DNA of 64,000 nt from Bordetella genomosp. 12 (GTDB taxonomy: Bacteria > Pseudomonadota > Gammaproteobacteria > Burkholderiales > Burkholderiaceae_B): positions 62,001-126,000 of the forward strand of contig NZ_NEVU01000002.1 in NCBI RefSeq assembly GCF_002261355.1. Direction: 5' to 3'. The position numbers and the translations under genes are program-made. The notes beneath the pieces were generated by a model that was not told the origin of the DNA, searched no databases, and saw only the letters and a list, made by a program, of their open reading frames with translations. The number at the start of each line of letters is the position of its first letter. Position 1 is the first letter of the stretch. Below are positions 1,483 to 56,055 of the stretch, piece after piece.

Positions 1483-1541
1483 GGATTTGGCAAGTTTTCG
1501 TACTCTTAATGGCAGGAATTTGCCATCAGGAGTGCGTGGAG

Positions 1542-2762
1542 ATGCTGGATCGCAAGCTGCTGGAGACGTTGGGAGGCTGGCAAGGCTATGCCGTTGAACG
1601 CGTGGAGTGGCCCGAGGGCGCAGGACGCACGCTGTCGATCTATTTGAAGCCAACCGCCAAGGTGATGCTGTGCGAGCAGTGCGGCGCACGATGTCGCCAG
1701 GTCCATGAGACCACGGTGCGACGGGTGCGAGATCTGCCGCTATTTGAGTACCGGGTTGTTCTTCACGTGCCACGCCGGCGCCTGTTGTGTGAGCGATGCG
1801 GTGGCCCGCGCTTGGAGCGGCTTTCTTGGCTGGGTCGCTACCAACGGGTGACGGATCGGCTTGCGGCGGCCTGCAGCCAATTGCTGCAATCAAGCAACGT
1901 GCAGGCGGTGGCAAGGTTCTTCGAACTGGGTTGGCACTCCGTCAAGGCGCTGGACAAGGCCCGGCTCCGAGCGTCAATGCGCGAGCCGGATTGGTCCAGG
2001 ATCGAGTATTTAGCGATGGACGAGTTCGCCCTGCATAAAGGGCATCGGTACGCGACAGTAGTCGTCGATCCGATCAGCAGGCAGGTGCTGTGGATCGGCC
2101 CAGGACGCTCACGCGAGACGGCTCGGGCGTTCTTCGAGCAATTGCCGCGTGGGGTGGCCCAACGCATCAAGGCCGTTGCCATCGACATGACTACGGCCTA
2201 CGAGTTGGAAATCCAGGCCCACTGCCCACAGGCGGAGATCGTCTATGACTTGTTCCATGTCGTGGCCAAGTACGGACGAGAGGTCATTGATCGGGTGCGC
2301 GTGGATCAGGCCAACCAACTGCGCCAGGACCGTCCCGCGCGTCGGGTCATCAAATCGAGCCGCTGGCTGCTATTGCGCAACCGCGACAAGCTAGACCGGC
2401 AGCAGGCCGTCCGGCTCGACGAATTGCTGCAAGCCAACCAGCCGCTGCTGACGGTCTATGTTCTGAGGGACGAACTCAAGCGGCTCTGGTTCTACCGAAG
2501 ACCTGCCTGGGCAAAACAAGCCTGGCACCACTGGTGCGAGCAGGCCGAGCAAAGCGGTATAGCCCCCTTGAACACCTTCGCTCAGCGTCTGAAAGGCTAT
2601 CTGCATGGCATCCTGGCCAGATGCCGACATCGACTAAACACCAGCATCGTTGAGGGCATCAACAACACCATCAAGGCCATTAAGCGGCGCGCCTACGGGT
2701 ACCGAGACCAGGAATACTTCTTCCTCAAAATCCGCGCCGCCTTCCCCGGTAATGCTCAATGA
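1542..2762 (+). CDS. tnp: ISL3-family transposase
   Basis: This DDE transposase mobilises the surrounding element. The 406-residue product opens with MLDRKLLETLGGW. It has an N-terminal zinc ribbon (CEQCGARC, then LCERCGG), followed by the ISL3 catalytic core with acidic residues in LAMDEFALHKGH, AIDMTTAYE and IVEGINNTIK. The ATG at 1542 was chosen because AGGAG lies at 1528-1532 and the length then matches IS1001; an in-frame ATG at 1509 would add 11 residues. A 6-bp inverted repeat at 1509-1526, just before the ribosome site, could damp translation from read-through transcripts of ectD. The stop codon lies inside the right terminal repeat. Confidence 0.95.
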   Translation: MLDRKLLETLGGWQGYAVERVEWPEGAGRTLSIYLKPTAKVMLCEQCGARCRQVHETTVRRVRDLPLFEYRVVLHVPRRRLLCERCGGPRLERLSWLGRYQRVTDRLAAACSQLLQSSNVQAVARFFELGWHSVKALDKARLRASMREPDWSRIEYLAMDEFALHKGHRYATVVVDPISRQVLWIGPGRSRETARAFFEQLPRGVAQRIKAVAIDMTTAYELEIQAHCPQAEIVYDLFHVVAKYGREVIDRVRVDQANQLRQDRPARRVIKSSRWLLLRNRDKLDRQQAVRLDELLQANQPLLTVYVLRDELKRLWFYRRPAWAKQAWHHWCEQAEQSGIAPLNTFAQRLKGYLHGILARCRHRLNTSIVEGINNTIKAIKRRAYGYRDQEYFFLKIRAAFPGNAQ

Positions 2763-3774: not shown

Positions 3775-4092
3775 TCAGCCGCTGGCCAGTTTCAGGCCGA
3801 TCAGGCCGGCCACGATGAGCAGCACGCTGACCACGCGCAGGCCGTTCAAGGCCTCACCGAAAAGCACGATGCCGGCCACGAAGGCGCCGATGGTGCCGAT
3901 GCCCACCCAGACGGCGTAGGCCGTGCCCAGGGGCAGGGTTTTCATGGCTGTGGCCAGGAGCCAGAAGCTCACGAGCATGCCGGCTACGGTAATGATGGAG
4001 GGGCCAAGGCGGCTAAAACCGTGGGTGTACTTAAGACCCACCGCCCAAACGACTTCGAAGAGGCCGGCAAAGATGAGAATGATCCAGGTCAT
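3775..4092 (-). CDS. sugE: SMR-family guanidinium exporter (SugE/Gdx)
   Basis: A 105-residue inner-membrane protein with four predicted helices, typical of small multidrug resistance transporters. The membrane-embedded Glu13 (in GLFEVVW) is the residue that couples protons and substrate in the family. SugE/Gdx members export guanidinium rather than bulky drugs. The assignment is strengthened by the guanidine-II riboswitch directly upstream. The start ATG at 4092 has a GGGAG about 8 bases before it. The gene runs convergently with the MOSC gene, whose stop is four bases away. Confidence 0.92.
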
Positions 4093-4136
4093 GCTGATGC
4101 TCCCGAAAGCTGGGCTGGCGCGCGGTGGGCCGCCCA

Positions 4137-4184
4137 GGGGGCCGTCCCCGGATGTGACTCGGGCTTCGGGTCGTCCCAAAGCCC
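4137..4184 (-). ncRNA. Guanidine-II (mini-ykkC) riboswitch controlling sugE
   Basis: On the minus strand two hairpins occur in series. The first (4184 to 4161) has a stem of GGGCTT and GGG paired with CCC and AAGCCC around a loop ACGA. The second (4149 to 4138) has GGGG/CCCC around a loop ACGG, and the linker is 11 bases. Two hairpins with ACGR loops upstream of an SMR gene is the defining signature of the mini-ykkC/guanidine-II class. Loop-loop dimerisation on guanidine is known to free the ribosome site, here GGGAG just before the sugE start. Confidence 0.88.
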
Positions 4185-4188
4185 AAAG

Positions 4189-4194
4189 ATTATA
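4189..4194 (-). promoter_or_regulatory. Candidate -10 box (TATAAT) for sugE
   Basis: Perfect TATAAT on the minus strand, five bases before the first riboswitch hairpin, so transcription would begin at about the first base of the aptamer. No good -35 is seen. Confidence 0.6.
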
Positions 4195-4302
4195 AAATAC
4201 CCGCCGGCCGGGAGCCAGCCGGAACTCCCTGTGCCCATGGCAGCCGCCTTCGGGCGGCATGGCAACACTCGCGGCCCGGTCCGCATACCCAGGAATATTT
4301 TT

Positions 4303-4671
4303 ATGCAACGCATTATGCTGCGTGCAAAGCTGCACCGCGTCACGGTCACCGAAGCCGACCTCCATTACGAAGGGTCTTGTGGCATCGATGAAGATCTCCT
4401 TGACGCCGCCGGCATGCGCGAGTTCGAGCGCATCGAGCTTTACAACGTCACCAACGGCGAGCGTTTCGATACCTACATCATCAAAGCGGCTCGCGGCAGT
4501 GGCGCCATTTCGCTCAACGGCGCCGCGGCGCGGCGCGCCCAGGTGGGCGACCTGATGATCATCTGCACCTATGGCCCCATGTCCGAAGAGGACTCGGCCC
4601 GCCATAAGCCGACGGTGGTGCTGGTCGACGACGGCAACCGCGTCAAGGAAATCCGCAAGTTTCCTGACTGA
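4303..4671 (+). CDS. panD: Aspartate 1-decarboxylase precursor PanD
   Basis: PanD decarboxylates L-aspartate to beta-alanine for pantothenate and coenzyme A synthesis. It is made as a proenzyme that self-cleaves between Gly24 and Ser25 to form the pyruvoyl cofactor; that pair is present in HYEGSCGID. At 122 residues it has the usual length, and WNVTNG-type (here [12 protein letters not shown]) and [12 protein letters not shown] motifs are conserved. The start is the ATG opening [13 protein letters not shown]. No other pantothenate gene is nearby. Confidence 0.96.
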
Positions 4672-35129: not shown

Positions 35130-35180
35130 ACACATTTCGGCGTTTGCCACCACTCAAAACAAACAAATGGAGCCTGGCCA

Positions 35181-35417
35181 ATGAGCAATAAAGGGCAAAC
35201 TTTGCAAGATCCGTTTCTGAACACACTGCGCAAGGAACACGTGCCGGTGTCGATCTATCTCGTAAACGGTATCAAGCTTCAGGGGCAGATCGAATCTTTT
35301 GATCAATATGTTGTGCTCTTGCGCAACACTGTCACCCAGATGGTCTACAAGCATGCCATCTCCACGGTTGTGCCGGCTCGCGCCGTCAACTTTCAGGTGG
35401 AAGTTCCCGCTGAATAA
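35181..35417 (+). CDS. hfq: RNA chaperone Hfq
   Basis: A 78-residue Sm-like hexameric RNA chaperone that pairs small RNAs with mRNAs. The Sm1 and Sm2 regions are complete ([21 protein letters not shown] and the Hfq-specific [10 protein letters not shown]). The C-terminal tail is short, as in betaproteobacteria. Followed by a hairpin and hflX. Confidence 0.98.
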
Positions 35418-35445
35418 ACGTCTCGCTCCAGCTTTACCTCTTGCT

Positions 35446-35477
35446 GCCCGCCTCGCGCTTCGCGCCGGCGGGCATTT
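35446..35477 (+). terminator. Hairpin between hfq and hflX, probable partial terminator
   Basis: A stem GCCCGCC / GGCGGGC enclosing an inner GCGC-TTC-GCGC hairpin, followed by ATTTTCG. It would set hfq apart from hflX at partial efficiency. Confidence 0.6.
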
Positions 35478-35504
35478 TCGCTCTGGTTCCAAAATGGTGC
35501 ATGC

Positions 35505-36611
35505 ATGCGCGCATTGATCATCAGTGTTGACCTCGGGGATCCGGACCACCAGGCGCATGCCGATGAGTTCGTCATGCTGGCCGAAGGTGCCGGCGCCGAG
35601 ATCGTCGGGACGCTGAACGCGCGGCGTGACCGGCCCGACGCCAAGTACTTCATCGGTTCGGGCAAGGTGGAAGAAGGCGTGGCCCTGGCCGGCGCGGCTT
35701 TGGCTGACATCGTCCTTTTCGACCAGCCACTGTCTCCGGCACAGCAGCGCAATCTGGAGCGCGAGTTCAACCTGCGGGTGGTCGATCGCGTGGCCCTCAT
35801 CCTGGACATCTTCGCGCTGCGCGCCAAGAGCCACGAGGGCAAACTGCAGGTCGAGCTCGCCCAGTTGCAACATCTGGCCACGCGCCTGACCCGGCTGTGG
35901 ACGCACTTGGAGCGTCAGCGCGGCGGGATCGGCATGCGCGGCCCGGGCGAATCGCAGCTTGAAATGGATCGCCGCATGATCGGCGCCAAGGTCAAGATGC
36001 TGCGCGAGCGGCTGGACCGGGTCGAGCGCCAGCGCGTCACGCAACGGCGGGCGCGCGCCCGGGGCGGCGCGGCCTCCGTATCGCTGGTCGGCTATACCAA
36101 TGCCGGCAAGTCCACGCTGTTCAACGCGCTGACGCGCGCTGGCGCTTATGCCGCCGACCAGCTCTTCGCCACGCTCGACACGACCACGCGCCGCATCTGG
36201 ATCGAAGGTGCGGGCTCGGTCGTGCTGTCGGATACGGTGGGCTTTATCCGTGATCTGCCGCCCAACCTCATCGCGGCGTTCCGCGCGACGTTGGAAGAAA
36301 CCGTGCACGCGGATCTGCTGCTGCATGTCGTCGATGCCGCCAGCCCGCAGCGTGAAGAGCAGATATTCGAGGTCAACAAGGTGCTGGCGGAGATCGGTGC
36401 CGCAGAGATCCCGACCATTCTGGTTTATAACAAGATCGATCGCGCTGGCCTGGAACCTCGGGTGGAGCGAGATGCACATGGTACGATTGCGCGAGTATTT
36501 GTAAGCGCTACCGAGCGCGCTGGTCTGGATGCGTTGCGCGGGGCAATTGCAGAGATCAGTCAGATTGCGGGAAACAATGCCTCGAATCATCAAACTCTTC
36601 AATCTGAATGA
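35505..36611 (+). CDS. hflX: GTPase HflX
   Basis: A 368-residue ribosome-splitting GTPase. An N-terminal HflX domain (KYFIGSGKVEEGV, FDQPLSPAQQRNLE) and coiled coil precede the G domain with P-loop GYTNAGKST and the switch DTVGFIRDLP. It ends 35 bases inside the next gene, hflK. Confidence 0.95.
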   Translation: MRALIISVDLGDPDHQAHADEFVMLAEGAGAEIVGTLNARRDRPDAKYFIGSGKVEEGVALAGAALADIVLFDQPLSPAQQRNLEREFNLRVVDRVALILDIFALRAKSHEGKLQVELAQLQHLATRLTRLWTHLERQRGGIGMRGPGESQLEMDRRMIGAKVKMLRERLDRVERQRVTQRRARARGGAASVSLVGYTNAGKSTLFNALTRAGAYAADQLFATLDTTTRRIWIEGAGSVVLSDTVGFIRDLPPNLIAAFRATLEETVHADLLLHVVDAASPQREEQIFEVNKVLAEIGAAEIPTILVYNKIDRAGLEPRVERDAHGTIARVFVSATERAGLDALRGAIAEISQIAGNNASNHQTLQSE

Positions 36612-37881
36612 CCCCGGTTGGGGTCGTGGAAACAACAATGGCTCCGAGCCGCCGAAGCGGCCGCAGGGCAATGGAGACGGTCCGCCGGACCTGGACGAGG
36701 TCTGGCGCGATTTCAATAATCGCCTGGGCTCTTTGTTCGGGCGCAAGGGCGGGGGCGGCAATCGCCCGAATCCGCCGCGCGGCGGCGGATTCTCGGGGCC
36801 ATCGCCCAAGGGCGCGCGCATCGGGCTGGGGATCATTGCCCTGGTGCTTGTCGCCCTTTGGCTAGCCAGCGGCTTTTTCATCGTGCAGGAAGGCCAGGTC
36901 GCCGTGGTGACCCAGTTCGGCAAATATAAGAACACCGCGCCGGCCGGTTTCCAGTGGCGCATGCCGTACCCTATCCAGAGCCATGAGCTCGTCAATGTCT
37001 CCCAGCTGCGCACCTTCGAGGTGGGCTTTCGGGGCGGTTCGCGCAACAAGGTGCTGCCTGAGGCCCTGATGCTGACCACCGACGAGAACATCGTCGACAT
37101 GCAGTTCGTGGTCCAGTATCGCCTGCGTGCCGACGGTGCGCCGGACTACCTGTTCAAGATGCGCGATCCGGACGAGGCCGTGCGCCAGGCGGCCGAGACC
37201 GCCATGCGTGAAATCGTCGGCAGAAAGCCGATGGACTTCGTGCTGTACGAAGGCCGTACCGAGGTTGCCGGCGAAGTGCAGTCGCTGATGCAGCAGATCC
37301 TCGATCGTTACAGTGCCGGCATTCAGATCAGCACCGTGGCCATCCAGAACGTGCAGCCGCCGGAGCAGGTCCAGGCCGCTTTCGATGACGCCGTGAAGGC
37401 CGGGCAGGATCGCGAGCGCCAGATCAACGAAGGCCAGGCCTATGCCAACCAGGTCGTGCCGCTGGCCAGCGGGCAGGCTTCGCGCATGCTCGAGCAGGCC
37501 GAGGGCTACAAGGCCAAGGTGCTTGGCGACGCGCAGGGCAATACCGCGCGCTTCTCCTTCATCCTGGGCGAGTACCAGAAGTCGCCGCAGATCATGCGTG
37601 ACCGCATGTACCTCGAGACGATGCAGGAAATCTTCTCCCGCTCGAGCAAGGTCATGGTCGACGCCGGCAAGTCCAACAATATGTTGTACCTGCCGCTGGA
37701 CAAGATCATGCAGCAGGCCGCACAGGATGCGGGCCGTCAGGGCGCGTCGCTGGGCGTACCGGGGGCTGCTCAGCCTTCGGTGCCGCCGCCGCCCACGCGC
37801 GCCGGCACGCCCGCGAGCTCATCCGGCAGTAGCAGCAGCGGTAATACCAATACGCTGCCCCGCGATCGTATGTCGCGCTAA
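36577..37881 (+). CDS. hflK: FtsH protease modulator HflK
   Basis: A 434-residue membrane protein with a Gly/Pro-rich cytoplasmic N-terminus, one transmembrane helix (about 87-108), an SPFH/band-7 domain and a low-complexity Ser-rich tail. With HflC it forms a periplasmic cage around FtsH. The ATG giving MPRIIKLFNLNDPGWG was chosen; this makes a 35-base overlap with hflX. The tail is followed by hflC. Confidence 0.94.
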   Translation: MPRIIKLFNLNDPGWGRGNNNGSEPPKRPQGNGDGPPDLDEVWRDFNNRLGSLFGRKGGGGNRPNPPRGGGFSGPSPKGARIGLGIIALVLVALWLASGFFIVQEGQVAVVTQFGKYKNTAPAGFQWRMPYPIQSHELVNVSQLRTFEVGFRGGSRNKVLPEALMLTTDENIVDMQFVVQYRLRADGAPDYLFKMRDPDEAVRQAAETAMREIVGRKPMDFVLYEGRTEVAGEVQSLMQQILDRYSAGIQISTVAIQNVQPPEQVQAAFDDAVKAGQDRERQINEGQAYANQVVPLASGQASRMLEQAEGYKAKVLGDAQGNTARFSFILGEYQKSPQIMRDRMYLETMQEIFSRSSKVMVDAGKSNNMLYLPLDKIMQQAAQDAGRQGASLGVPGAAQPSVPPPPTRAGTPASSSGSSSSGNTNTLPRDRMSR

Positions 37882-45448: not shown

Positions 45449-47716
<2,268 letters not shown>

Positions 47717-47723
47717 GTTTTAA

Positions 47724-47802
<79 letters not shown>

Positions 47803-47827
47803 AGAAATCCTGGGCAATCAGGTAACG

Positions 47828-47859
47828 ACAGCCGCCAGTTATGGCGGCTGTTTCTTTTT
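47828..47859 (+). terminator. Terminator after rpoD and tRNA
   Basis: A 10-bp stem (ACAGCCGCCA / TGGCGGCTGT) around GTTA, then TTCTTTTT. Confidence 0.88.
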
Positions 47860-47929
47860 GGGCGTTTATAGGGCGGCGGCCTGAGATCGCTTGGGTGCAG
47901 CGCTGGGGCGGGAGGGGGCGGGCCGGCCG

Positions 47930-49012
47930 TCATTTGTCGGCAAATACGATGGCCTCGATCTTTGCCATGAGGTCAGAGGGGGCCTCTTTGGAAATATCGT
48001 CGACAGACGCCAGGCCAAGCCAGGCGAGCAGTTTGCGGCGAAAAATCGGTAAATCCGCGCTTTCGTATCGGTTGCCCATCTCGGCTGCGGCCAGCGGGAA
48101 AAGCAGCAAGTAACCCGTGCGATCCGAAACTGCATCTTCGATGCCACCCACATAGGCGATATTCACCGTGGGATCGAAGGTATAGGTTTTTCCGGCTATT
48201 TGGGCATCGACGAAAACATGGCCCGGGATGTAGCGGTATTCGTACTTGATTCCCCGCCGGTGCAGCACATACGCGAGCAAGGCCGCGTAGTCATAGCAAC
48301 ATCCAATCTCGGATCGAGTAAATTCACTGAAATTCCTTATGCGCTGCCCGCTTTCATTCTCGATGACGCAGCCCAGAGCTTCCTTGTTTTGAAAGTTTCC
48401 GTAGTGATAGAGCGCCGCGACGGTATTCATGGCATGAATCGAGAACAGCGCTTCCGTGCCCAGTTCGCGCAGGGATTCAGGGAACAGCCGGGGTTGGTAG
48501 GTGTCGACGACGAATTTATAGAAATCGGGCCCCGTGGCGAGTGCCGCCATCGCTTCCTTGTGACTGAAGATTCCGAGGTAATCATCAATGGCCACGCTGT
48601 AGCTTTTGACATCCCTCGATGAATAAAAGGTCAACCGCGAAAGCGCGGCTTCGCTCGTGACCTCAATTTGTCCAAGGTAGGCGTTGATGATTTTTTCAGT
48701 CGATCCGGATTTACGGGCCTGGATGTGGAAGTCATAGATTCCACGGCCATTGAGATCCACACTGAATGCCCCGTCACGGGAGTAATCCGAAAGCGGGGTC
48801 CAGGAGATTTCAGGTTTCTGCTCGCCGGCGTCGGGACGATAACGCATGAGAAATTGGTACTCGACGCCATCCTCAGGCGCGGCGACGCGGCCGCGTTCCG
48901 TCCCCTCCAGCCTCACACCACCCAGATCGAGGTCGGCGATTTTCGGCAGGCTGCTGGCATAGGCAGCAAAAGAAATAAAGAATATCGCGGCACAGACAAG
49001 TAGTTTTCTCAT
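47930..49012 (-). CDS. Secreted transglutaminase-like protein, copy A (function unknown)
   Basis: 360 residues. A signal peptide (MRKLLVCAAIFFISFAAYAS) is followed by an Ig-like/triple-Tyr-type domain (about 45-105; WTPLSDYSRDGAFSVDL, IYDFHIQAR). A papain-fold transglutaminase core follows, with Cys238 or Cys239 (GCCYDYAALL), His265 (GHVFVDA) and Asp280 (FDPTVN) in the right order. It is paralogous throughout to the divergent gene at 49470, with shared blocks RPDAGE, MRKLL, HAMN, LYHYGN/MYHYGN, DPTVN and GNRYES. The start at MRKLL is chosen from this paralogy; a longer start at 49039 is possible. It may crosslink, cleave or scaffold in the periplasm; the substrate is unknown. Confidence 0.8.
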   Translation of the reverse strand: MRKLLVCAAIFFISFAAYASSLPKIADLDLGGVRLEGTERGRVAAPEDGVEYQFLMRYRPDAGEQKPEISWTPLSDYSRDGAFSVDLNGRGIYDFHIQARKSGSTEKIINAYLGQIEVTSEAALSRLTFYSSRDVKSYSVAIDDYLGIFSHKEAMAALATGPDFYKFVVDTYQPRLFPESLRELGTEALFSIHAMNTVAALYHYGNFQNKEALGCVIENESGQRIRNFSEFTRSEIGCCYDYAALLAYVLHRRGIKYEYRYIPGHVFVDAQIAGKTYTFDPTVNIAYVGGIEDAVSDRTGYLLLFPLAAAEMGNRYESADLPIFRRKLLAWLGLASVDDISKEAPSDLMAKIEAIVFADK

Positions 49013-49469
49013 CGTCAGGGAAGGGTGTCCTGTTCGCATTGCTGCGGTATGCGGGCAATTCTAGCGTAGGCACCATGGATGCCATATAAGTGTGTTAGCA
49101 GAGAGGTGTTGCGCTGGATGTCGCGCCGATGTCTGTGGGGGGGAGGGGGCCGCAAGGGGCGCGGATTCCGGGGAAACCGGAGGGCGAGCCGGGCGGGTGG
49201 CGCAGGGGTTTTCCGATCAGCCGGGTGTCTTTCTGGCTGGCCTGAGGGGGGGGCGTGCCATGCCGGCGCCTTAGCCACCTCGCCCGGCTGAAAGGGGGGG
49301 CGCCTCATGCTTTATATGACAGTCTGGCTAAAATGAGCGCATCTCCGGTTTAGGCTGACTTCCATGCTTTATTTTTCTGCACTGGGTTTGATCCGCTTCA
49401 CTGACGCCGCCCGCACGCGGATTGCGCATCCCTCGGCCTTACGCTTGCCGCTCAATGGGAGCCGTGGGC
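49013..49469. other. G-tract-rich intergenic region between divergent transglutaminase-like genes
   Basis: 457 bases. Three homopolymeric G runs occur: G7 at 49137-49143, G8 at 49246-49253 and G7 at 49294-49300. A candidate -10 for the right gene (TAAAAT, 49329-49334) follows 29 bases after the last run. No coding sequence is supported. Homopolymer length here could affect promoter spacing. Confidence 0.55.
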
Positions 49470-50564
49470 ATGCGTAAGCTATTGATGGTGTTGCTATGTT
49501 TGCCCTTGCTCTGTCTGGCGGAGGGGGGGCCGCAAGTCTCGGGCTTGCTGCTGGGGGGGACCGTACTGGAGGGGAAAATATCGGGTCAAGTGGACAGCCC
49601 CGATCCGGAACTCGAGTATCAGGTGCTGGTGAGGTTTCGCCCTGACGCGGGAGAATCCAAGCCCGAGTTGCCCTGGACCCCGGTTACGGATTATTCGTCG
49701 TCCGGCGCATTCTCCCTGCCCATGGACGGCAGCGGCGTGTTTGATTTTCATTTGAATGCGCGCAGAAAATCTGATCAGACACAGGTCCTGAATAAGTATC
49801 TCGGGCAGATGGACACGGTCAGCGATGCGGATTTGTCCAATACGACTTTCTATCCATCGCAGTATCTGAAAACCTATAACGTCCCCACGACCTATTACCT
49901 CGATATGTTCCAGCGCAAGGAACAAATCAAGGAAATACACACGAACAAAGGCCTGGCTGCCTTTATTAAACGAAAGTTCAAACCCGAAGTGTTTCCCGAT
50001 TCCGTCAGGGGGCTGCCCCGGGATCTGGTTCTCGCGCTGCATGCGATGAATTCGATCAACGCGATGTACCACTACGGGAACGTGGTGGATTCGGAAGGCG
50101 CCGGATGTGTTTTGTTGAACGAGGGCGACAAGAAAGTCGAGTCGTTCGCGCAGTTTGTCGACTCCTACGTGGCTTGCTGCATTGATTACGTCATGTTGCT
50201 CAAGTACGTGCTGGATCAGTACGGTATCAAGAGTGAGCTGGCGACGATTCCCAACCACGTCTATCTCAATGTGATCGTCGATGGCGAGACCTACACGCTC
50301 GATCCGACCGTCAACATGGCCTTCATCGGCGGCATCATCGATGTCCTGGATCGCAAGGGCGGCTATATCCTGACTTTCCCGATGGTGGCCGAAACGCAGG
50401 GCAACCGTTATGAAAGCATGCCGGCCAGCAACTTCCGCCGCAAGATGATCGCCTGGGTGGGTTTGGCGGGTTCCGATCAGGTCGGCCCCGGGCCCGTGGT
50501 GATGTCAGAGCCGGCCTATCCGTTTATCTATGGCGTACCCAGACAGAACGCCGCCGCCCAATGA
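49470..50564 (+). CDS. Secreted transglutaminase-like protein, copy B (function unknown)
   Basis: 364 residues, paralogous along its whole length to the minus-strand gene ending at 49012. Signal peptide MRKLLMVLLCLPLLCLA, Ig-like domain about 45-100 (WTPVTDYSSSGAFSLPM), and a transglutaminase core with Cys236/Cys237 (ACCIDYVMLL), His263 (NHVYLNV) and Asp278 (LDPTVN). The C-terminus carries an extra Pro-rich tail. The start has GGGAG at 49457-49461. Codons 18-20 and 28-30 are encoded by two G7 runs (49523-49529 and 49553-49559), prone to slippage that would switch the gene off. Confidence 0.8.
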   Translation: MRKLLMVLLCLPLLCLAEGGPQVSGLLLGGTVLEGKISGQVDSPDPELEYQVLVRFRPDAGESKPELPWTPVTDYSSSGAFSLPMDGSGVFDFHLNARRKSDQTQVLNKYLGQMDTVSDADLSNTTFYPSQYLKTYNVPTTYYLDMFQRKEQIKEIHTNKGLAAFIKRKFKPEVFPDSVRGLPRDLVLALHAMNSINAMYHYGNVVDSEGAGCVLLNEGDKKVESFAQFVDSYVACCIDYVMLLKYVLDQYGIKSELATIPNHVYLNVIVDGETYTLDPTVNMAFIGGIIDVLDRKGGYILTFPMVAETQGNRYESMPASNFRRKMIAWVGLAGSDQVGPGPVVMSEPAYPFIYGVPRQNAAAQ

Positions 50565-50614
50565 GGTGAGGCGCGGCGCTGGCGGCCCCTGCAGGGCGAG
50601 GTGGCGGCGCGCGG

Positions 50615-51799
50615 TCAGCGAATGGCGTTGTCCGTGCGATAGGCGTCCGCGACGTTTCTGAATGACGGGTTGCCGCTGATGCGGTAGAGCGCTTCGGCGA
50701 AATTGATGGCCCGCAAGGGGCCATAGTCAGCCACATTGGCGTCAAACAGCCAGTACGCGCTGTTCTCGCCCGGACGGCGTACCTCCCACATATAGCGCGC
50801 CATGGTGGCAAGGCCTGCGCGGATAAGGGGTACGAACTGTTGGTCGCCCGTTTGCTGGGTGTAATAGTAAAAGGCGAACACCACACCCACGTGGCCGTTG
50901 ATGACATGGGTGCGGCGGCCGTCAAAGGGCGGCGTTTCTTCAAACCATAGAAAGCTGGCGTCGTCGACCATCACCAGGTCGTTGTTGGCACCGGTCCAGG
51001 CGAGCTTCTGCAGGTAGGCATATGCCAGCCGGGTCAGCTCCGGTCGATGGGTCGCCGCGGCCAGATCCAGCAGGCCGATCACGGCAAACGCATTACCGAG
51101 TGCGCTCGTCCATCCTTTCTTCAGCCTGCCGCCCTGCATGCTGTGGTCGAAGTCATAACGGACATAGCCGTCACGCGTATAGGCGGCGAGTTGCCTGAGC
51201 AGGTAATCCGCGGCGTCCTTGATGGGCGTCTGCGGTGCCGCCTGCGCGGTATGGCGCAAAATGGCGGCATTCTGGGCGAAGGTGTAAGGCGCGAATTCCT
51301 GTTTGAAAACCTCGGTGTACACCTGGGGCCAGGGAATGGGCAGCAGCCCTTTGCCGTCCCAGACGCGCTCGTTCGGCAGCGCCATGGCCGCGCGCACATT
51401 TTCGCGCATATTGAGCGGGGCTTCGAGGACCTTGATCGTCGTGCCTTGCATCGCGGTCCAGCTGATGCCGCGCACGATAGGCGTGCCAGGCAAGAGGACG
51501 GACGGCGTGACAAGGGCATCCCGGCGTGCGGTTTCGATGAGGGCCTTCTACGCATGGGCGAGGTCCGCGGCGCGCCGGGCTGCCGCCTCGGCGGCATCGA
51601 GCTTGGACCCGGCCGCGAGCGTTGCCCGGGCCTGCTGGTCGAGCTGGTGCTGCAGATTCATGACCTGCGCGCGCATGCGTTCGTGTTGGTGGCGCGCTTT
51701 GCGCTGCTCGTGATGCGTCATCAGCGTGAGGATGAGCGTGGCCAACAGCAGTATGGCGATCGCTGCATATTGGCATGCGGCCCTCGTTGCGCGCCTCAT
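50615..51799 (-). pseudogene. Membrane-anchored glucuronyl C5-epimerase-like protein, interrupted by an in-frame amber codon
   Basis: Read as one frame from 51799, the product has an N-terminal transmembrane helix (AIAILLLATLILTLMTH) and a coiled coil (about 30-83), then TAG at 51550-51548 (codon 84). It continues in the same frame as KALIETARRDALVTPSVLL into a C-terminal D-glucuronyl C5-epimerase-like domain, with GWTSALGNAFAVIGLLDLA, FLWFEETP and HVINGHVGVVFAFYYY. CAG to TAG is the simplest cause. Intact relatives would be anchored enzymes acting on polysaccharide. Restart at a later codon such as TTG 51493 is possible, but no ribosome site is seen. Confidence 0.75.
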
Positions 51800-52148
51800 T
51801 GGCTGCCCGTAACGGGACGGATCGGAGAATCGAGCGGGCGATGCGAAACCGAATCTATCACGGCGATGCCCCTGCTGGCGTTGGTGTGATGGATGCGTCC
51901 CGGCAGTGAACAGCTCGTCGGGCATGACTGCCATTGTCTGCGCGAGGCGCAGGCGTCGTGATGCTCAGATAATGCAGTGCATTATCTGAGTAACCATATC
52001 ACGGATACTAGGATGGATTTTGTTGCATTATCGGCGGCATTATTCGGCCACCGGTTCGCCATATGCGACGATGATGAGCATGAGTTGGCTTCAGTCCGAG
52101 CGACAAGGCCAGCGATCAGGATGAGCAGAGGCAAAGGGAGCAGGGCGC
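51800..52148. other. Intergenic region upstream of the epimerase-like gene and a small lipoprotein
   Basis: 349 bases between divergent genes. The only structured part is the palindrome at 51964-51990. The right end has GGGAG before the lipoprotein start. Confidence 0.5.
51964..51990. promoter_or_regulatory. 27-bp perfect palindrome, candidate operator
   Basis: Arms CTCAGATAATGCA and TGCATTATCTGAG are exact complements around a single G. It lacks a T-tract, so an operator for a dimeric regulator is more likely than a terminator. It lies 165 bases before the epimerase-like gene and 159 before the lipoprotein. Confidence 0.6.
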
Positions 52149-52397
52149 ATGGGGATTCGAGCGTTGGGGCGGTATGGGCTGATCATGGTGTGCGCCGTGT
52201 TGGCGGGCTGTTCGTCCCTGGCCCGTCCGGAACCTGCCCTCACGCCGGCGCAGGCCAGTAGCGAGTGCCGCTGGAACCGGAGCAAATGCCTATATGACGG
52301 CCAATATGAACCCGGCGAGCGCGATTATGCCGAGCAGGAGGCGCGGCGTTTGAATCTGGCCGAAGCCGCAAGGTTGCGGCGGGCCTTTGGCAACTGA
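52149..52397 (+). CDS. Small lipoprotein of unknown function
   Basis: 82 residues. Signal peptide with lipobox VLAGC (Cys21), then a short mature part containing a Cys pair (ECRWNRSKCLYDGQYEPGE) and a charged helix (DYAEQEARRLNLAEAARLRR). GGGAG lies 7 bases upstream. It matches no family that can be named from sequence. Confidence 0.7.
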   Translation: MGIRALGRYGLIMVCAVLAGCSSLARPEPALTPAQASSECRWNRSKCLYDGQYEPGERDYAEQEARRLNLAEAARLRRAFGN

Positions 52398-52781: not shown

Positions 52782-52990
52782 GACTGCCTCCTGTGGGGGA
52801 GTCCCATCTTATCCTGCGTGCCGGCTCGGCGGCGCCCATCCTGCGATTTGATGTCATATTCTGCTACAATTTGCGTTTTATGCGGTAGCTTGGCAGTCTT
52901 TCTTCATGTTTGTTCCCCCGGTTGTCTCATCGTGCGCGCCTGCCTCACGCGCGGGTTCGCCTGTCGCTGCTCGAACCGGTAGGAACAACG

Positions 52991-53665
52991 ATGGCCACTG
53001 ACGGCGCAGCCTGGGTTGCGCAGCAGACTGCGATCGGCCGCATCGAAGCCTTGATGCAGTCCCTGACCGAGCGTGATCCGCATACGGCCGGTCATTCCCG
53101 GCGCACGGCGCGCATCGCCATGGCGCTGGGAGAAGGGGCCCGTCTGGATGCCGCCCAAAGCTATGTGCTGGGCGCGGCCGCCTTGCTGCACGATATCGGC
53201 AAGCTGGGCGTGCCGGCAAGGATTCTCGATTTCAAGGGCCGGCTCGACCGCGCCGATTGGGCGCGCATGCAGGAACACTCCGTGCTGGGCGAGCGCATCG
53301 TCCGAGCGGCGGAACTGCCGTTGGGCGATCAACTGGCCCGGGCGGTGCGGCATCATCACGAGAATGTCGATGGCACCGGCTATCCGGATGGTCTGGCGGG
53401 CGAACAGATCGAATTGGCCGCGCGCATGATCAGCCTGGCGGATGCCTATGACGCCATCTCCTCGGCGCGTTCCTATCATGGTGAGCGCACGCACGCAGAG
53501 ACCATGGGCATTCTGGCCGGCGAGGTGGGGCGTAAGTGCGACGCCGGGGTCTTCGAGCTGTTCGTGCGCGAGGTCGAGCCACGCTTGACGGGCGCCCGGC
53601 CCTGGCCGCATGCCGAAGCGGCGGCCTGGCAGGCCATCCAGCGTTATTGCGACGGGCTGGATTGA
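52991..53665 (+). CDS. HD-GYP domain protein, probable cyclic-di-GMP phosphodiesterase
   Basis: A 224-residue protein consisting almost only of an HD-GYP domain. Metal ligands include the HD pair in LLHDIGKLGVP (67-68), His in TAGHSRRTA, and the HHHENVDGTGYPDG motif with GYP at 130-132. HD-GYP enzymes hydrolyse c-di-GMP. No receiver or sensor domain is attached. The ATG at 52991 is preceded by AGGA; an in-frame start upstream would add a short basic stretch. A possible -10 TACAAT is at 52865-52870. Its 3' end overlaps the thioesterase gene tail to tail. Confidence 0.88.
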   Translation: MATDGAAWVAQQTAIGRIEALMQSLTERDPHTAGHSRRTARIAMALGEGARLDAAQSYVLGAAALLHDIGKLGVPARILDFKGRLDRADWARMQEHSVLGERIVRAAELPLGDQLARAVRHHHENVDGTGYPDGLAGEQIELAARMISLADAYDAISSARSYHGERTHAETMGILAGEVGRKCDAGVFELFVREVEPRLTGARPWPHAEAAAWQAIQRYCDGLD

Positions 53666-55347: not shown

Positions 55348-56055
55348 ATGGACCACGAAGACTATCTGGTCACGGGACGTCTCGAAATCGTGCATCTGCT
55401 GCTGACCATCATGCAGCGGCAGTCACTGGTGTTCATGCATGTGCCGGGCCGTCCCATCAATAGCGTCACGTCGATTCTGGCCGTGGATGCGGATCGCGGC
55501 GAGTTGTTTCTGGACGCGGCCCAGGAAAGCAGCGTCAATGATCGCATCGCCACCGGCGAGCGGGTCTCGTTCGAAACCTCGCTGGACAACATCCGCGTCT
55601 CGTTTTCGGGCAGTGAAATCACCCCGGCAAATTTCGAAGGCCGGTCGGCCTTGTGCATGCCGCTGCCCGCAGCGATCTCGCGCATGCAGCGGCGCGATTC
55701 GTTCCGTATTGAAGTCCCCGTGCTCAAGCCGGCCACCTGGTCCATGGCGGGCCGCCGGCTGACGCTGGCCATCAAAGACATCAGTTCGACCGGGCTGGCC
55801 TTGAGCGATGTCGATCAGCAGATGGATACCACGCCGGGCGTCGAGTATGACGGCGTGCTCAGTCTGCCGGAGATCGGCGCTTTTGCATTGACTGTCAGAG
55901 TGGTGCACCACGCCGATCAGGATGCTGGCAAAGGTAAGGTCCTGCGCCGCATCGGCTGTACCTTTGTGGACCTGGATAACGGGATCCGCATTCGCATCCA
56001 GTCATACGTCAATACCCTGCAGCGCGCGATGATCGCGCGGCAGCGCGGCAACTGA
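55348..56055 (+). CDS. YcgR-like PilZ domain protein
   Basis: A 235-residue protein with an N-terminal YcgR-N-like domain (about 1-105) and a C-terminal PilZ domain (about 112-230). Both c-di-GMP-binding motifs are intact: the RxxxR segment RRDSFRIEV and the DxSxxG segment KDISSTGLAL. YcgR proteins act as a flagellar brake. No flagellar genes are nearby, but the HD-GYP gene 2 kb upstream could tune its ligand. Confidence 0.88.
   Translation: MDHEDYLVTGRLEIVHLLLTIMQRQSLVFMHVPGRPINSVTSILAVDADRGELFLDAAQESSVNDRIATGERVSFETSLDNIRVSFSGSEITPANFEGRSALCMPLPAAISRMQRRDSFRIEVPVLKPATWSMAGRRLTLAIKDISSTGLALSDVDQQMDTTPGVEYDGVLSLPEIGAFALTVRVVHHADQDAGKGKVLRRIGCTFVDLDNGIRIRIQSYVNTLQRAMIARQRGN

Follow-up and report, generated by a model that had tools for sequence, protein, structure and literature searches.

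What do two genes that stand head to head beside a tRNA-Met gene of Bordetella genomosp. 12 encode, and on what would their products act? The locus lies in a stretch of 64,000 nucleotides (RefSeq assembly GCF_002261355.1, contig NZ_NEVU01000002.1, positions 62,001 to 126,000 of the forward strand), referred to below as the window, whose numbering is used throughout. A first-pass annotation had described the genes, here called A and B, as a divergent pair of paralogues. Our computational analysis indicates that their products are very probably secreted enzymes of the transglutaminase superfamily, and we tentatively propose an envelope polymer as their target.

A divergent pair of exported-looking paralogues

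Gene A (47930-49012, minus strand; 360 aa from ATG 49012) and gene B (49470-50564, plus strand; 364 aa), the latter delimited by its open reading frame (ORF) and by homology to A, are oriented head to head in the ORF listing, with 457 bp of shared divergent upstream region (49013-49469, assigned to no strand) between their likely starts. For gene B the start is most likely ATG 49470 and not TTG 49422, because GGGAG stands upstream of it and the opening MRKLL lines up with A. For gene A it is most likely the internal ATG 49012, which opens with the same MRKLL, with ATG 49039 (369 aa) as the alternative; a clear Shine-Dalgarno sequence is present at neither candidate. The search for promoter-like sites returned one, upstream of A, and shuffled sequences averaged more (2.2). 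In both proteins MRKLL is followed by a hydrophobic stretch that, judged by hydrophobicity alone, has the look of a Sec signal peptide, and neither shows a transmembrane-like stretch after the N-terminus (highest 19-residue mean 0.94 in A and 1.42 in B). A and B therefore look like exported, soluble proteins.

BLASTP aligned residues 32-349 of A with residues 21-338 of B at 45% identity over 318 residues with no gaps (E=6e-114), a similarity that, by sequence comparison, is far above chance. Counting A residues from ATG 49039, the two proteins have in common C224, C247, C248, D250, H274 and D289, with identical Cys-His (26) and His-Asp (15) spacings, and each contains the CC pair (C247 and C248 in A). 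From motif and residue order, backed by hhalign, we infer that C248, H274 and D289 of A and their equivalents in B form a Cys-His-Asp triad; in both the motif and the hhalign alignments, the CC pair's second Cys stands where the nucleophile would be expected. Nonsynonymous divergence between the genes (dN 0.54, NG86) stands against a saturated synonymous divergence (dS about 2.0), and the duplication therefore looks old, with both copies seemingly constrained since. On all these points the first-pass annotation was borne out: both ORFs lie where it had placed them, only their start codons being slightly corrected; the pair is divergent, paralogous and probably secreted; the signal peptide proposed for each protein fits its N-terminus on the basis of hydrophobicity; and the complete triad and CC pair claimed for both are seen as residues shared at equal spacing. 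Its further suggestion, of subunits or alternative variants of one system, is speculative.

Fold, family and distribution

A predicted structural model places the Cys, at residue 121, in helix 119-134, and His 147 and Asp 162 in strands 147-154 and 157-162 (local pLDDT, the predicted local distance difference test, about 65-90). The residues thus occur in the order Cys-His-Asp, with Cys at a helix start and His and Asp on later strands, as is characteristic of the papain-fold superfamily. The top structural matches of this weak model include Transglutaminase 2 and TglA. At the sequence level, the Pfam family DUF553 (PF04473; curated cut-off 20.5 bits) matched A with 21.1 bits for the whole protein and 23.0 bits for the core, the match spanning residues 227-292, the catalytic core region only, while the core of B reached 12.0 bits, under the cut-off. 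Transglut_core (PF01841, cut-off 23 bits) matched neither protein in the Pfam scan at E<=1; in their own genome it is found at E<=0.01 in two other places, one of them above cut-off. No family of bacterial transglutaminase-like cysteine proteinases (BTLCPs) was among the Pfam matches of A or B at E<=1, the presence of a model of that name in the library being unverified, and DUF993 (to A) and Phage_TAC_9 (to B) lay far under their cut-offs. The pair had no match in PADLOC, a best E of 0.019 in PHROGs and none in BFVD at E<=0.001; the PDB gave two matches to A by sequence, at E 0.93-0.94, and none with profiles. The Ig-like/Y_Y_Y domain that the first-pass annotation had assigned to each protein is hinted at in A (Pfam E=0.056, under cut-off) and found no match in B. 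Its statement that no named family covers the architecture stands for the libraries searched, except that the core of A passes the DUF553 cut-off. Beyond this match the family is not described in those libraries; the kind of enzyme is known.

A profile built from A and B found only their own genome in overlapping draws of 268 genomes of the family, 15 of the genus and 398 of the phylum, all at E<=0.001, and of 399 of the order at E<=1e-6. An earlier draw of 200 family genomes likewise gave that genome alone. Searches of plasmid and phage records with tblastn gave no match to B at E<=0.01 and, for A at E<=1, partial matches: to three plasmid records, all of one species, with E 0.08 at best, and to three phage records with E 0.5 at best, of which two represent one virus and are annotated as pseudomurein-binding. 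Peptide-pattern scans, two of genome contigs and four of viral contigs, whose reach is close relatives, recovered no relative. By these sequence searches the pair is an orphan within the genome draws, plasmids, phages and genome and viral contigs covered.

More generic kin of the core are within reach of profile searches, which found no full-length relative in the collections searched. Class-wide, at E<=1, the profile listed 22 rows from 21 of 273 other genomes (best E 0.00447); the longest covered at most 90 profile positions and 7 of the 22 contained internal stops. The three rows that fall on the catalytic core were scanned further. One (L018) is a PF01841 protein (79.2 bits), to which the pair core aligned in a single hhalign comparison with a probability of 67.5. 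Another (L016) is a frame of the ProA anti-phage type, scoring 915 bits to NF058533 (cut-off 1500) and containing DUF4011 and a partial helicase match; here a single hhalign comparison gave a probability of 64.2 over 57 columns, with Cys and His aligned to those of the pair and, by manual count, the same spacing of 26. The third (L015) is UvrC, a chance match rather than a core relative. The ProA model itself scored A with E 0.0032 (14.9 bits) and B with E 0.025 (11.9 bits), neither attaining its cut-off of 1500, and the plasmid protein weakly matched by A scored 217.6 bits with it. Because of the two core matches, these model scores and the ProA-scoring plasmid protein, the core of the pair is transglutaminase-like and leans somewhat towards the ProA type, from which the proteins differ in size and export signals. 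ProA-type anti-phage frames with a transglutaminase-like stretch were seen at L016:898-3159 and L052:2209-3939, where Pfam gives no transglutaminase family; a literature search on DUF4011 together with transglutaminase found no paper.

A variable site beside tRNA-Met

The tRNA-Met gene (CAT; 47724-47802, plus strand), followed just downstream by a terminator-like hairpin (47827-47852), forms the left edge of a variable site and lies beside rpoD across the genus genomes. This left flank, the end of rpoD and the tRNA, is present in all 15 genus genomes, that of the pair included, although in one a short match covers the tRNA only. The downstream side was compared in 11 of the other 14 (rows at E<=1e-5 and over 80 bases). 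Similarity to the window ends at 47802-47865 in all 11 and resumes at 52249 in L038 and L039, at 52274 in L040 and, more weakly, at 52587 in L041; in the other seven it did not resume within the 11-15 kb compared. A 4.4-kb segment (47866-52248, assigned to no strand) thus has no counterpart at the same site in L038, L039 and L040, the relatives in which both flanks matched near the segment edges. L038 carries a pertactin-type autotransporter between the flanks and L040 an ORF with an integrase core of insertion-sequence (IS) type, while in L042 a PF00589 phage integrase lies some 25 bp away from the tRNA. Since similarity stops after the tRNA and the contents differ among these three genomes, the position is a variable tRNA site, of which the segment with A, B and a C5-epimerase-like gene is the local cargo.

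The G+C content of A (0.543) and B (0.555) is below the 0.61-0.70 of 13 other ORFs of the window, one of which (35154-37100, minus strand) overlaps a GTPase gene and is perhaps not a real gene. At third codon positions (GC3) A, with 0.634, falls under the range of these ORFs (0.706-0.876) and B, with 0.726, within it. A scan of the window for another copy of the 3' end of tRNA-Met, with up to three mismatches allowed, found none, and hence no duplicated attachment site; no inverted repeat in 47700-52300 is longer than a 25-nt palindrome. We infer that A and B were acquired, probably together with the epimerase-like gene.

This last gene (50615-51934, minus strand) includes a part, 50615-51493, that matches the C5-epimerase C-terminal domain PF06662 with 36.1 bits (cut-off 23.3). 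Because the same frame continues upstream through an in-frame TAA (51548-51550) into 51548-51934, with a membrane-anchor-like stretch, the gene resembles that of a membrane-anchored epimerase which has been interrupted, the alternative being two adjacent genes. At E<=1e-15 its own genome was the only one of 330 from the order to give a match to its protein; at E<=1e-5, 2 of 15 genus genomes did so (the other, besides its own, with 28% identity over 110 residues), and no plasmid record matched. The protein also matched 15 Pseudomonas phage records, at 29% identity over 57% of its length among the 8 listed; one is a hypothetical protein at 4001-4519 of MK511014.1 (L051).

The segment also contains a cluster of G runs. 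Of the six G/C runs of at least 7 in the window, five fall within 423 bp (49137-49559): three G7-G8 runs in the shared upstream region (49137-49143, 49246-49253 and 49294-49300) and two G7 runs on the plus strand within the first 30 codons of B (49523-49529 and 49553-49559). A gain or loss of one base in either B run would stop translation at codon 59 or 54. Relatives show eight G/C runs of at least 7 in 160 kb, no two within 500 bp, and a first-order Markov model of 49040-49600, a stretch picked after the runs were seen, gave a mean of 0.72 runs and at least five in 1 of 2000 trials. Genome-wide, G8 occurs 48 times on both strands, overlapping matches being counted apart. Switching at such runs, even at a C6 in bvgS, is described for Bordetella pertussis in passages of a study (PMC1891110) whose threshold for C/G runs was apparently nine or more, above the G7-G8 of the one genome in which the locus was found. 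The cluster is a possible phase-variation site, as read from the sequence.

The first-pass annotation held that nothing in the neighbourhood fixes the substrate. Strictly this stands; it had overlooked the tRNA-Met site, the G-run cluster and the epimerase-like gene with its connection to uronic-acid chemistry. Elsewhere in the window we noted an ISL3-family transposase (1509-2762, plus strand) with a zinc finger of the IS204/IS1001/IS1096/IS1165 type and, to the right of the variable segment, an HD-domain protein (HD_5; 52910-53665, plus strand) and a YcgR-like PilZN-PilZ protein (55348-56055, plus strand), both of kinds that we take to be usual in cyclic-di-GMP signalling.

Possible substrates and known systems

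In enzymes of this superfamily a thioester, or acyl-enzyme, forms at the Cys with assistance from His and Asp. A and B would be long-separated paralogous exported cysteine enzymes of this transglutaminase (papain-like) superfamily, each consisting of an N-terminal domain, perhaps of beta-sandwich type, a helical middle region and a Cys-His-Asp catalytic core, and would have arrived downstream of rpoD at the tRNA-Met site, the cargo of which differs between species of the genus. Once exported into the periplasm, each enzyme would attack a carboxamide with the second Cys of the CC pair, and the resulting thioester would be resolved by water (deamidation or hydrolysis) or by an amine (transamidation). 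The likeliest target would be a polymer of the envelope and, within this class, a uronic-acid polysaccharide that bears amides, since the neighbouring gene is uronate-epimerase-like and WbmE is reported, in part of PMC3507681, to act on uronamide O chains. We thus propose tentatively, at somewhat less than even chances, that A and B were acquired and act in the periplasm on the amide groups of such a polymer, perhaps of such a polysaccharide; action on a polysaccharide rather than on protein or peptidoglycan is slightly more doubtful still, and the substrate as such is a guess. Several points weigh against a polymer-tailoring amidase or transamidase pair, favoured as it is: the link is contextual, the epimerase-like gene may be dead, its ORF is of ordinary composition, unlike the low G+C of A and B, and a passage of the review PMC10318531 says that DUF553 proteins modify proteins, transferring peptidyl glutamine to amines. 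The fullest version, a mobile, phase-variable envelope-tailoring module in which slippage in the G runs, those upstream of both genes and those near the start of B, switches a diverged amidase pair of a new transglutaminase-fold family that works with a uronate epimerase on a surface polysaccharide, all carried at a tRNA-Met hotspot, is very unlikely.

Among the alternatives, A and B could be periplasmic proteases of the BTLCP/LapG kind that cleave or shed an adhesin at the surface or control a protein of the envelope, the two copies serving two substrates or sites. Such proteases share the superfamily and the probable location, HvyA and LapG being BTLCPs (according to the part of PMC4241560 at hand), and in L038 the position of the segment is occupied by a gene for a surface autotransporter. 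We nevertheless regard this as unlikely: the Pfam scan at E<=1 returned no BTLCP family, no adhesin or LapD-like partner was recognised among the 13 window ORFs scanned, and the third residue stands in a DPT motif, which we take to be transglutaminase-like and unlike BTLCPs. About equally unlikely, or marginally more so, is true cross-linking or deamidation of an envelope protein. The DUF553 passage on glutamine transfer to amines (PMC10318531), the presence of Transglutaminase 2 and TglA among the top structural matches, and the in vitro transglutaminase activity reported for the periplasmic domain of TgpA (in part of PMC3507681) speak for it; the DUF553 cut-off is passed by A only, however, TgpA is a membrane protein of other architecture with PF01841, and there is no substrate candidate.

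Improbable, finally, is a segment of decaying foreign cargo with no present function. The interruption of the epimerase-like gene, the low G+C of A and B and the restriction of the pair to 1 of 15 genus and 1 of 268 family genomes would suit it, but A and B have kept their full length and complete triads, and between them dN is clearly lower than dS, albeit over the whole time since duplication. Were the polymer-tailoring proposal correct, an exported transglutaminase-fold family would join the few with known envelope targets, such enzymes would be shown to travel as accessory cargo, and the G runs would make on/off surface modification directly testable; with an ordinary substrate, A and B would still be a well-defined orphan pair for structural work and enzymology.

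Set beside known systems, the pair resembles each in part. The core of A exceeds the DUF553 cut-off, whereas B falls short of it (12.0 against 20.5 bits) and the match is confined to the core. With the ProA type (NF058533, with DUF4011) it shares weak core matches from three sides and the Cys-His spacing of 26; the ProA model, in contrast, has 1903 positions and the matching frame carries DUF4011 and a partial helicase, whereas A and B are exported-looking proteins of about 360 aa. TglA of Streptococcus pyogenes (9crn) is 13% identical in a comparison made from the weak model; among the papers listed by a literature search, none dealt with this protein. TgpA of Pseudomonas aeruginosa has a periplasmic transglutaminase-like domain with a Cys-His-Asp triad (passages of PMC3507681), but also six transmembrane helices, PF01841 and DUF3488, while A and B have no transmembrane segment past the signal peptide and neither family. 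The BTLCPs HvyA and LapG are, in the available part of PMC4241560, likewise exported, with catalytic Cys, His and Asp and envelope targets; HvyA, a periplasmic BTLCP of Caulobacter, is described there as preventing capsulation and as needing its catalytic residues. Unlike HvyA, which has 272 residues and a gene in a capsule export locus (PMC4241560, in the same part), A and B gave no match to a BTLCP family among their Pfam matches at E<=1. WbmE of Bordetella bronchiseptica, likened to the pair by description and not by sequence, is a periplasmic transglutaminase homologue that deamidates uronamide-rich O chains after polymer assembly (as stated in part of PMC3507681), and differs from the pair in being a single gene of the wbm O-antigen locus (as given in part of PMC3849452). 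WbmE and HvyA therefore provide two precedents for this superfamily in the tailoring or control of surface polysaccharides.
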